Source: Paludibacteraceae bacterium
GTDB taxonomy: Bacteria > Bacteroidota > Bacteroidia > Bacteroidales > Paludibacteraceae
Assembly (NCBI GenBank): GCA_017478725.1
Contig: JAFVDD010000046.1
Location: forward strand, 1 to 44,482
DNA: 44,482 nucleotides
Reading direction: 5' to 3'
The stretch's first letter is position 1; every line of letters starts with the position of its first letter. Made by a program: the position numbers and the translations under genes. Of the stretch, positions 11,471-13,653 are shown one piece after another. A model generated the notes under the pieces. The model saw nothing but the letters and a program-made list of their open reading frames with translations, made no database searches and was not told the origin of the DNA.

Positions 11471-11992
11471 CAATTTACAATTTACAATTCACAATTAACA
11501 AAGGGACGCCAGAGTATGTACGGTTTAGGTATATTAGGTGACAAAGTTGGGAGTTTTACCAAACGTGTTGTGGATTTAACAAAGCAGTTAAAAGAACAAA
11601 AAGAATATAGTTTGGCAGATCAATTCTTTAGGAGTGGCACTTCAATCGGAGCAAACTGCAGTGAGGCGACTTGCGCGGTGTCAAAAGCTGACTTTGCTAA
11701 TAAGTTGAGTATTGCGCTAAAGGAGGCAAATGAAACGTGTCATTGGATTGATGTAATCTATATGACAGAAATAATTGATCAAACAGTATATGAATCCATA
11801 AAGACAGATGCAGTGGAAATATGCAAATTACTTACAACGATAATTAAGAATGTTCGACAGAACATTGAGAATACTAAGAAGTAAGTGGATGTAGTTAAGT
11901 GCAAGTGCAACTTGATAGAAAGCACAAAGCTTAAAACGTTGTACCAAACTTGTAAAGCTCTTTGTTAATTGTAAATTGATAATTGATAATTG
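11471..11992 (+). mobile_element. Cassette with heptad-repeat inverted ends carrying a four-helix-bundle gene
   Basis: The left end is four heptads of type CAATTnA (11471-11498) plus CAAAGGG (11499-11505). The right end is the inverse: CTTTG (11960-11964) plus TTAATTG, TAAATTG, ATAATTG, ATAATTG (11965-11992). Inside the right end, TTGTACCAAAC (11939-11949) is the reverse complement of GTTTGGTACAA at 13567-13577 in another copy. The only gene inside is the four-helix-bundle protein at 11516-11884; 11885-11938 holds nothing recognised. The element sits between the cluster promoter and mraZ. No transposase is present, so mobilisation in trans is inferred. Confidence 0.6.
11516..11884 (+). CDS. 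Four helix bundle protein (S23/IVP family)
   Basis: The protein has 122 residues and matches the family named for proteins encoded in 23S rRNA intervening sequences (TIGR02436), related to the Avd accessory protein of diversity-generating retroelements. Signature segments are the basic first helix (FTKRVVDLTKQLKEQKEYSLADQF), RSGTSIGANCSEA, and SKADFANKLSIALKEANET, followed by two more helices. There is no signal peptide. Family members form small multimeric bundles and are suspected to bind nucleic acid; the function here is unknown. No rRNA, reverse transcriptase or template/variable repeat is present in the window. It is the sole gene between inverted heptad arrays, 113 bp upstream of mraZ, and mraZ probably depends on transcription through it. 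Confidence 0.9.
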   Translation: MYGLGILGDKVGSFTKRVVDLTKQLKEQKEYSLADQFFRSGTSIGANCSEATCAVSKADFANKLSIALKEANETCHWIDVIYMTEIIDQTVYESIKTDAVEICKLLTTIIKNVRQNIENTKK

Positions 11993-11997
11993 ATATT

Positions 11998-12459
11998 ATG
12001 CAGACATTTGTTGGAAACATAGAAGGCCGGCTGGACGAGAAAGGGCGTATATTCGTCCCGGCAGGTTACAGGAAGATATTGGCGGAAGCCGAGTCGAAGC
12101 GTATAGTAATGCGCCGCGATACAGACAACGAGTGTCTGATGTTTTACCCTGAGCAGATATGGAATGAGAAAGTGGAGCAGTTGCGCCAGGCGCTCAACGA
12201 GTGGGACCCCGAGGACCAGCTCATTCTGATGCAATTCATGGCAGATGCCGAATATCTGGATATGGACGGACAAGGGCGAATCCTGCTGCAGAAGAAAAAT
12301 TTGGAGACTATAGGTGCGCAGCAGGATGTGCTCTTCGTCGGTATGCTCAACCGTTTTGCGCTCTGGGCACCGGAGAAATTCGCCGAGAAACGCCTCAGTC
12401 AGACAGAACTGGCGGCACGGCTGCGCGCCAAGATGAGCCGGAAGGGCGGTAATGTATAA
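11998..12459 (+). CDS. mraZ: Transcriptional regulator MraZ
   Basis: The protein has 153 residues and carries two AbrB-like MraZ half-domains. The first shows GRLDEKGRIFVPAGYRK, and the second shows LDMDGQGRILLQKKNL, each with the family's D-x-x-G-R pattern. MraZ is the first gene of the dcw cluster in most bacteria and represses the cluster in E. coli. The ATG at 11998 is chosen because MQTFVGNIEGRL is the standard N-terminus; the five in-frame codons before it belong to the heptad repeat. Its leader is therefore the right end of the mobile cassette. rsmH starts 34 bp downstream. Confidence 0.95.
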   Translation: MQTFVGNIEGRLDEKGRIFVPAGYRKILAEAESKRIVMRRDTDNECLMFYPEQIWNEKVEQLRQALNEWDPEDQLILMQFMADAEYLDMDGQGRILLQKKNLETIGAQQDVLFVGMLNRFALWAPEKFAEKRLSQTELAARLRAKMSRKGGNV

Positions 12460-12493: not shown

Positions 12494-13582
12494 ATGAACG
12501 AAGTATATCACATACCGGCGATGCTCAAGGAGACGATCGAAGGCTTGGCTATCAAGCCGGACGGGGTGTATGTGGATGTTACTTTTGGCGGCGGAGGGCA
12601 TTCAAGAGCTATATTGGAGGCTATTGACAATTCACAATGTACAATTGACAATTCACAAAGGGCTGGTGAAAGTTCTGTGCAAAAAGGAAAGCTTTTTTCG
12701 TTTGACCAGGATGAGGATGCACTCCGGAATGCGATAGATGATCCGAGATGGACGTTTGTGCATTCGAATTTCCGCTATCTGAAAAACTGGATGGATTATT
12801 ACGGGGTGGAGCAGATAGACGGTCTGCTGGCGGATTTAGGGGTCAGTTTTCATCATTTCGATTGTCCGGAGAGAGGATTCAGTTTCCGTTACAGCGCACC
12901 GCTGGACATGCGTATGAACCAGACAGCCAAACGCACAGCTGCAGATATAGTGAACAGTTACAGCGAAGAAGAGCTGGCGCGGTTGTTTTGGTTGTACGGC
13001 GAGATGAAAAACGGACGGAGCATAGCAAGGAATATATGTGCTAAAAGAGCGCAGGCTCCTATTCTTCGAACCGAAGAATTAATAGCCGCGGCACTAAAGC
13101 TATCAGCCATCAGCTATCAGCCATCAGACGGCATAGAAAGCCGATGGAGCCTTGGAAATACAGGAAGTCCCGAAGAGTTGGGAATTCCGACAAATGCGAA
13201 AAAGGATTTAGCCAAGCTGTTCCAGGCGCTCCGGATAGAAGTGAACGACGAGATGGGTGCGCTGAGAGAGATGCTGGTGGCGGCACGCGACTTGCTCAAA
13301 CCCGGCGGACGGATAGCCGTGCTGACTTATCATTCGCTGGAGGACCGGCTGGTGAAGAATTTCTTCAGAAGCGGCAATCTGGAAGGCACGATAGAGAAAG
13401 ATTTCTACGGCAATGCGTTGACTCCGTTTGATGTTATCGAGAAGGGGCGCACCGCCTCGGACGATGAAGTAGAACGGAATCCCCGCAGCCGGAGCGCCAA
13501 ACTGCGCGTGGCAGAGACGCTAACAATGCACAATGCACAATGTACAATGCACAAAGGGCTAATGAGGTTTGGTACAAATTGA
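12494..13582 (+). CDS. rsmH: 16S rRNA (cytosine-1402 N4)-methyltransferase RsmH with repeat-derived insertions
   Basis: RsmH methylates C1402 of 16S rRNA using S-adenosylmethionine. The SAM-binding motif VDVTFGGGGHSRAIL follows a typical N-terminus (MNEVYHIPAMLKETI). Further conserved segments are ADLGVSFHHFD, RGFSFRYSAPLDMRM, FQALRIEVNDE and YHSLEDRLVKNFF. At 362 residues it is about 50 longer than the usual length near 310. Three segments account for this. Residues about 45-66 come from the heptad array at 12628-12662 and its flank. About 200-212 come from the array at 13098-13125. The tail after LRVAET comes from the element at 13524-13653, which also supplies the stop codon. The frame stays open and the core motifs are intact, so it is probably functional. 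Confidence 0.93.
   Translation: MNEVYHIPAMLKETIEGLAIKPDGVYVDVTFGGGGHSRAILEAIDNSQCTIDNSQRAGESSVQKGKLFSFDQDEDALRNAIDDPRWTFVHSNFRYLKNWMDYYGVEQIDGLLADLGVSFHHFDCPERGFSFRYSAPLDMRMNQTAKRTAADIVNSYSEEELARLFWLYGEMKNGRSIARNICAKRAQAPILRTEELIAAALKLSAISYQPSDGIESRWSLGNTGSPEELGIPTNAKKDLAKLFQALRIEVNDEMGALREMLVAARDLLKPGGRIAVLTYHSLEDRLVKNFFRSGNLEGTIEKDFYGNALTPFDVIEKGRTASDDEVERNPRSRSAKLRVAETLTMHNAQCTMHKGLMRFGTN
12628..12662 (+). repeat. Single heptad-array end inside rsmH
   Basis: Four heptads (CAATTCA, CAATGTA, CAATTGA, CAATTCA) are followed by CAAAGGG, the same architecture as the left end at 11471-11505. The flank continues CTGGTGAAAGTTCTGTGCAA, whose last 11 bases match GTTTGGTACAA of another copy at 8 of 11 positions. 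It encodes the peptide DNSQCTIDNSQRAGESSV. Confidence 0.8.
13098..13125 (+). repeat. Second heptad array inside rsmH
   Basis: AGCTATC and AGCCATC alternate twice, so a 14-bp unit is perfectly duplicated. It encodes LSAISYQPS. The sequence family differs from CAATTnA but has the same 7-bp period and unit count. Confidence 0.85.
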
Positions 13583-13653
13583 TAAGATTCGTACGGAATA
13601 CTAAGTTTGTACAAAACTTTTAAAACGCTTTGTTAATTGTTAATTGATAATTG
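13524..13653. mobile_element. Gene-less (MITE-like) copy of the heptad-repeat element
   Basis: Left end: CAATGCA, CAATGCA, CAATGTA, CAATGCA, CAAAGGG (13524-13558). Right end: CTTTG plus TTAATTG, TTAATTG, ATAATTG (13628-13653). The 25 nt inside the right end match those of the 11471-11992 cassette at 19 of 25 positions without gaps, and both continue identically into CTTTGTTAATTGT. The 69-bp interior has no gene; it contains GTTTGGTACAA (13567-13577) and the inverse TTGTACAAAAC (13607-13617). The element supplies the last codons and stop of rsmH and the entire leader of ftsL, whose ATG begins 4 nt after it. Confidence 0.65.

Follow-up and report, generated by a model that had tools for sequence, protein, structure and literature searches.

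The window analyzed here, a 44,482-nucleotide stretch of DNA from a Paludibacteraceae bacterium (assembly GCA_017478725.1, contig JAFVDD010000046.1), carries directly upstream of mraZ a small gene enclosed by inverted arrays of a 7-nt repeat. The question raised by this locus is whether gene and arrays constitute a mobile element and, if so, what part the encoded protein, of the S23 or four-helix-bundle (FHB) type, would play in it. S23/FHB genes are very common and unexplained in the family of this organism, and heptad arrays, noticed in several phyla, are likewise unexplained. A link between them gives both a testable role, namely that the protein is the recognizer of the array, and would place rRNA intervening sequences and the Avd proteins of diversity-generating retroelements (DGRs) in one wider class.

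Results

The element upstream of mraZ

The features of the locus are listed in Table 1. The units of the left arm, in order, are CAATTTA, CAATTTA, CAATTCA, CAATTAA, and CAAAGGG (11471-11505). The right arm is the inverse of the left, except that CAAAGAG replaces CAAAGGG and the outer units read CAATTAT. The letters themselves confirm the original prediction of four CAATTnA heptads and CAAAGGG on the left, the inverse on the right, and one small gene between. Two bases separate the right arm from the ATG of mraZ at 11998. When searched with a two-heptad pattern allowing at most one mismatch, the window yields 11 matches versus 0.27 expected, and none of 100 shuffles reaches 11.

Table 1 Features of the element, its gene-less relatives, and the neighboring genes
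Feature	Position	Strand	Description
Left arm	11471..11505	+	Four CAATTNA heptads, then CAAAGGG end; read from the letters and by pattern search
FHB/S23 gene	11516..11884	+	122 aa; profile matches (23S_rRNA_IVP, TIGR02436; PF05635) and PDB 2RLD match
Right inner flank	11908..11964	-	Homologue of ~57 bp of the gene-less core
Right arm	11958..11995	-	CAAAGAG end and inverted CAATNNA heptads
mraZ (presumed from sequence)	11998..12459	+	Neighbor downstream of the element
rsmH (presumed from sequence)	12494..13582	+	Carrier of the solo end and one gene-less copy
Solo left end	12621..12690	+	In frame within rsmH; downstream limit approximate
Gene-less copy	13523..13653	+	1.6 kb from the gene-bearing element; overlaps the end/stop of rsmH
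Heptads of the copy	13523-13551	+	Part of 13523..13653
Near-palindromic core of the copy	13552-13632	+	Part of 13523..13653
Inverted heptads of the copy	13633-13653		Part of 13523..13653

The protein scores 85.8 bits against PF05635 (E 2.8e-24; curated cut-off 33.8) and 100.4 bits against TIGR02436 (E 6.4e-29; cut-off 24), and by these curated cut-offs belongs to the S23/23S_rRNA_IVP family. A solved relative is PDB 2RLD (E 1.6e-28). The source assembly (2.16 Mb, 60 contigs, 84% complete) has four PF05635 matches, of which the window gene alone lies above the cut-off. A PADLOC run on two proteins, directed at a role in defense, gave no match.

Gene-less copies in the source genome

The end pattern CAATNNACAANNNACAAAGNG has 17 exact matches in the source genome, five of them in the window, and its reversed control has none in that genome. 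The solo left end of Table 1 is composed of heptads, CAAAGGG, and apparently part of a core, and it is here that the DNA matches of relatives break. Eleven gene-less copies, found in both orientations, were aligned over the near-palindromic core, which measures 81-85 bp in the 10 copies printed. Heptads lie outside the core on both sides in inverted sense. These copies are short, dispersed, and non-coding with inverted ends, the traits of a MITE.

The inner flanks of the gene-less copies had been expected to be shared, and they are, both among the aligned copies and with the gene-bearing element. Indeed, the right inner flank of the latter exceeds the maximum of 200 shuffles for nine of ten gene-less cores, with a best score of 40.0 (shuffled maximum, 20.0); the one core below its maximum is that of L018 (13.5 versus 15.0). 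For the copy 1.6 kb away (13523-13653), whose homology to this flank had been proposed from the outset, the score is 19.5 against a shuffled maximum of 13.0. The CAATNNA arrays of the source genome are the ends of a dispersed element.

A covariance model of the gene-less copies has 20 matches in the source genome, and among 178 genomes from the genus, 33 contain matches. All eight genomes with a window-type FHB (at least 75% identity) have such matches (hypergeometric p 6.5e-7), a value that denotes association only, since it ignores shared ancestry, the census scored at most ~21 candidates per genome, and an FHB element may itself trigger a match to the model (G162 has one, weak). Dependence of the gene-less copies on a window-type FHB was rejected because 25 of the 170 genomes without a close FHB also show matches.

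In 398 kb of the source genome, arrays of periods 7, 8, and 11 number 48, 19, and 23, and those of periods 6, 9, and 10 number 3, 5, and 0. Just five period-7 arrays occur in 400 kb of G024. The heptad arrays of the source genome far outnumber its FHB genes, and thus most arrays there stand without an adjoining FHB gene. Some of the period-8 and period-11 arrays are stacked beside heptad arrays of other families (L148-L167). At L125 (G292:C33), an FHB gene is positioned between two apparent tandem gene-less copies rather than within one element.

Inverted arms around FHB genes in general

S23/FHB genes are present in 112 of 150 genomes drawn from the family of the source organism. The loci collected for comparison (three lists of 30 each and the best 80 of at least 589 matches) contained 174 distinct FHBs. 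Ten had flanks too short to be used, and nine of the other 164 had a flank of fewer than 12 nt; without these, 155 elements remained. Arms were scored by local alignment between the flanks with a threshold of at least 11, and the 1001 control genes were given flank lengths drawn from the FHB set. Inverted same-repeat arms were found in 122 of the 155 top-scoring FHB elements versus 34 of the 1001 controls (Fisher p 7e-101). As the loci come from the top of ranked lists, this 79% should not be read as the frequency among S23 genes as a whole. The original prediction had named a lack of enrichment of FHB genes between inverted arrays as evidence against itself; the enrichment is there. With random flank partners, inverted arms averaged 9.6 of 155 over 20 shuffles and never exceeded 16. 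Arms in direct orientation (score of at least 11), present in 33 of 155 FHB elements versus 38 of 1001 controls, are also commoner than in controls, and 33 of the 155 have no detectable inverted arms. By a second measure (at least five shared 10-mers), the inverted counts are 40 of 86 FHBs versus 3 of 623 controls and the direct counts 15 of 86 versus 14 of 623. The named-genome set (n = 85) has 26 inverted and 7 direct. At L144 and L145, the arms around closely related FHB genes look direct, not inverted.

A detected array is present in 106 of 172 and 67 of 170 flanks; its period is 7 in 94 and 52 and 8 in 11 and 9. Of the first 31 FHB loci, 11 are flanked on both sides by arrays of period 7 or 8, with a unit particular to each locus, and the raw flanks reveal further, shorter arms. 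The unit varies from one element to the next and is common to both arms of a given element. As to CAATTnA heptads being the termini, heptad ends have held up and the sequence has not, for it differs from element to element. A detector for longer arrays, applied to 800 kb of sampled sequence and the window, returned seven same-unit inverted pairs. One of these is the window element. A second, in G024, surrounds part of an FHB-like reading frame, 76 aa long, that matches the first 46 positions of the PF05635 profile with an E of 1.8e-5 and falls short of the cut-off. Two more contain mraZ or rsmH, since they stretch from one copy of a family to another, and the other three, all in L161, have between their arms nothing or an open frame taken as spurious.

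Beyond the Bacteroidota, arms at the same threshold occur in loci labeled Nitrospirae, SAR324, Lambdaproteobacteria, Kiritimatiellaeota, Omnitrophica/Omnitrophota (three of four), Clostridia (a bin), and Oryzomonas. They were not found at that score in loci labeled Nitrospirota (L264), Phycisphaerales, and Acidobacteriaceae, or in a Desulfuromonadales locus whose flank has masked bases. For cyanobacterial plasmids (24 records), 5 of the 10 FHB loci examined have an inverted score of at least 11, and two of the five negative loci share identical flanks. On the plasmids of Anabaena sp. 90 and Pseudanabaena galeata (L307 and L309), an FHB gene sits between cas6 and cas4 of CRISPR-Cas loci. Inverted arms were not found at L307 at a score of at least 11, and L309 scores higher in the direct orientation.

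Gene and arms as one unit

Arm similarity correlates with FHB identity across 7180 pairs from non-orthologous sites, with a Mantel r of 0.275, a value reached in none of 2000 permutations (maximum 0.074). Arm similarity at such sites rises from 0.045 below 20% FHB identity to 0.31 at 60-80% and 0.68 above 80% (eight pairs). With the AT difference held for 59 named-genome elements, the partial r is 0.197 (0 of 2000 permutations). In the four largest junctions, the left arm compared with the inverted right arm of the same element gives median scores of 16.5, 13.5, 14.0, and 16.0. Between species, the left arm gives 8.0, 9.2, 7.0, and 8.0 and the right arm 8.0, 8.2, 5.8, and 7.0, all at background. 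The arms match within an element but not between species at one junction, and thus both arms change together. At several junctions that comprise two or three close relatives, the interspecies match of the same arm is equally good or better, in keeping with recent common descent. By these alignments, gene and arrays have been inherited, and placed at differing sites, as one unit, and the original suggestion that the FHB gene belongs to a small element with short-tandem-repeat ends is supported.

The dN/dS values for the FHBs are 0.031-0.063 in 6 of 28 pairs, namely the computable ones. Where computable, then, the S23 gene is, as judged from its codons, under strong purifying selection.

Placement

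Protein-size open frames lie close by on both sides of 150 of 164 elements, and co-directional frames of at least 150 aa are located nearby on both sides of 124 of 155 FHBs. Certain junctions recur across families: thiolase/acyl-CoA dehydrogenase (n = 17), fadB/thiolase (n = 9), and sdhA/sdhB (n = 7), where the gene names are those we presume from the protein sequences. FHB genes in fatty-acid degradation operons and between sdhA and sdhB are seen at L193, L202, L214, L216, L219, L239, L247, L250, and others. On the FHB tree (121 columns, 164 rows; the bootstrap had not settled), at least 4, 3, 3, and 2 changes are forced for junctions with 17, 9, 9, and 7 members, which suggests that the FHBs of one junction are not a single clade; both gain and loss may contribute to these changes. 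The fadB/thiolase label is unclustered on this tree, as 270 of 500 shuffles were as low. Eight pairs of FHBs that are more than 80% identical, with similar arms, occupy unrelated junctions.

The FHBs closest to that of the window (75-85% identical, among the matches listed) lie, as it does, before mraZ in G162, G273, G275, and G276, at the mraZ/rsmH junction in G241, between ftsL and ftsI in G239, and elsewhere in G292; these dcw gene names are again our presumed assignments. An FHB gene is found upstream of mraZ in 3 of 30 dcw loci (window included), to which G162 and G276 add two. The original prediction had looked to close relatives for an empty site, and one was found. At the same site, G276 has 505 bp and G312 a 24-bp leader, with two differences in ~95 promoter bases and two in 132 mraZ bases on the sides. 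No instance of transposition was observed, and no target duplication was found in this sole empty-site pair, in which 24 bp are replaced rather than cleanly interrupted. Also before mraZ, L116 retains the left array and an apparent core stub and L096 the heptads alone; both are probably decayed copies.

Discussion

The preferred reading and its alternatives

The observations are best accommodated, with a probability of roughly 0.6, by a minimal mobile element comprising one S23/Avd-like FHB gene bounded by inverted 7-nt (sometimes 8-nt) arrays, in which the S23 protein would recognize its own arrays. Its recurrence with differing repeats across several phyla points to an overlooked class of small mobile element. 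At both ends the unit, in inverted sense, is the thing that is kept. A recognizer of that unit would be the simplest cause, and the S23 gene is the sole gene inside, is under strong purifying selection where this is computable, and co-varies with the unit.

A different entity would be kept, namely the complementarity of an RNA stem, if the arms paired in the operon transcript and were cut by RNase III as in the intervening sequences of 23S rRNA. The available text of PMC4990558 describes rRNA intervening sequences that encode the same protein family and have stem-forming borders. The outer arms here pair in the predicted RNA (z of -4.6 and -4.1), and the co-directional frames flanking 124 of 155 FHBs would supply such a transcript. 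We nevertheless regard this RNA-level explanation as unlikely. The arm mismatches show no G-U bias (152 G-U-compatible versus 200 of the A-C type), a consensus fold of 11 gene-less copies has a two-sided change in 1 of 24 pairs, and L306, with strong arms, is antisense to both of its neighbors. Somewhat less likely still is a stable regulatory cassette of the operon that is no longer mobile, its pattern arising from old insertions, gene conversion, and repeat turnover. The recurrence of the same junctions across families (17, 9, and 7) and the strong purifying selection, where computable, are in keeping with such a cassette, but the FHBs at one junction do not appear to be one clade, and the eight pairs above 80% identity have similar arms at unrelated junctions.

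The element could alternatively be the passenger of another mobilizer, either an enzyme like the IS200/RAYT type that serves REPINs or a reverse transcriptase like that of DGRs; these two, by way of PF01797 and reverse transcriptase, were the mobilizer families looked for. The gene-less copies do resemble near-palindromes of the REPIN type, and L058, a typical FHB, has a match to the DGR Avd PHROG (E 8.7e-8), to which the window protein gave no match. Yet the source genome has 20 gene-less model matches and no match to PF01797 (the Y1 transposase), an absence that is not certain in an assembly 84% complete, and no reverse transcriptase is present in the FHB-rich genomes G134 (11 FHB matches) and G050 (seven). 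The two RVT_1 matches of the source genome are on contig C23, and the window is C5. On these grounds RAYT and reverse transcriptase were each rejected as the mobilizer, and the link to DGRs raised in the original prediction was not sustained insofar as dependence on a reverse transcriptase is concerned. A passenger is in our judgment less probable again than a stable cassette. That microsatellite-like arrays and FHB genes are both merely tolerated in intergenic space is very improbable: arrays without an FHB are common in the source genome, but the counts of 122 of 155 versus 34 of 1001 in the control genes already contradict chance, as does a unit that is common to both arms and yet private to the element.

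Two hairpin-based processes were rejected as the means by which the inverted arms are maintained. Selection for an RNA stem fails in that the mismatches lack a G-U excess; when pooled they differ in the sense opposite to a G-U bias (p 0.012), and by element the counts are 39 versus 43 (p 0.74). Were one arm mainly templated on the other by snap-back or quasi-palindrome copying, variant units would be expected in mirrored order, and the 76 elements examined do not show this. Compared with the mean of shuffled orders, the mirrored-order score is higher for 28 elements and lower for 40 (p 0.11), and the better-fitting order is reversed in 33, mirrored in 27, and equal in 16 (p 0.05).

Proposed mechanism

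Beyond the co-inheritance and differing placements demonstrated above, we infer the following for binding and the chemistry of movement. The mobile element, located mostly between co-directional genes, would insert there and probably be read through from the host operon. Its S23 protein most likely recognizes the repeat unit found in the arrays of the same element; with a row of binding sites in each array, it would bring the two ends of the element together. To our knowledge, no catalytic site has been described in the S23/four-helix-bundle family, and for that reason the cutting and joining or copying are assigned to host enzymes or to an enzyme acting in trans. The gene-less copies, which share the ends, would be non-autonomous derivatives. 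The median net charge of the FHBs is 0, such that their composition gives no clear sign of a surface for binding nucleic acids. An S23 crystal structure, as described in the available text of PMC4990558, is a ring of five four-helix bundles. Such a ring would lend itself to binding several sites of an array at once.

A bolder extension, which we consider tentative and on balance doubtful, is that the bacterial heptad-repeat families are for the most part traces left by a single ancient S23/Avd class, self-spreading and extending across phyla. Each protein lineage would have its own heptad and perhaps direct the building of arrays, so that both ends change with the protein.

Relation to known systems

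We know of no element that pairs an S23 gene with element-specific inverted heptad arrays, and the element is therefore regarded as categorically new. More cautiously, it could be filed as a non-rRNA, heptad-armed extension of the intervening sequences.

In the rRNA intervening sequences of Coxiella and Leptospira and the rRNA insertions of CPR bacteria, an S23/four-helix-bundle ORF is likewise present (PMC4990558 and PMC11270868, in the text available). The Coxiella insertion has complementary borders (PMC4990558, same text), as does the window element around its S23 ORF. The present elements differ in lying between protein genes, before mraZ in the window, and not in 16S or 23S rRNA, and in having at their ends tandem 7-nt arrays, with a unit that varies among elements. 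DGR Avd proteins are of a related family, given the resemblance of PF05635 to Avd (PMC10053308, in part) and the match of L058, but no reverse transcriptase lies beside the FHB gene here. With REPIN/RAYT systems and MITEs (PMC3116915, in part) the element shares dispersed, gene-less, near-palindromic copies. Its heptad-array ends and S23 gene set it apart, as does the lack of a Y1 transposase in the 84% complete source genome.

The STRR sequences of Nostoc constitute another bacterial heptamer repeat family. From the available text of the respective papers, GGGAATC occurs in Xanthomonas, with related repeats in Nostoc and 70 and 75 inverted pairs in two Xanthomonas genomes (PMC4692102), TAACTGA is found in Beggiatoaceae (PMC4679880), and Geobacter has heptads as well (PMC2700814). 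These families are similar to the present arrays in their 7-nt tandem units and largely intergenic location, but the same excerpts (PMC4692102, PMC4679880, PMC2700814) report no link to an S23 gene. The BrickBuilt MITE of Porphyromonas gingivalis, also in the Bacteroidales, has tandem repeats in an inverted-repeat element, but the unit is 23 nt and the available portion names no gene inside (PMC4596501). Single four-helix-bundle genes are listed in passing in the excerpts of PMC5524665 and PMC8700078. Within the accessible portions of the open-licence full-text literature, no link between S23/four-helix-bundle genes and heptad arrays was found.

Other sequences at mraZ and rsmH

Another heptad array in the window, with the unit AGCYATC, is located in frame within rsmH at 13098-13127. 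It occupies a second variable loop of rsmH, where the length differs among relatives. Just upstream of mraZ, L095 and L104 contain a different small insert, with much the same sequence in both, and the insert upstream of mraZ in L100 looks as though it is perhaps related to it.
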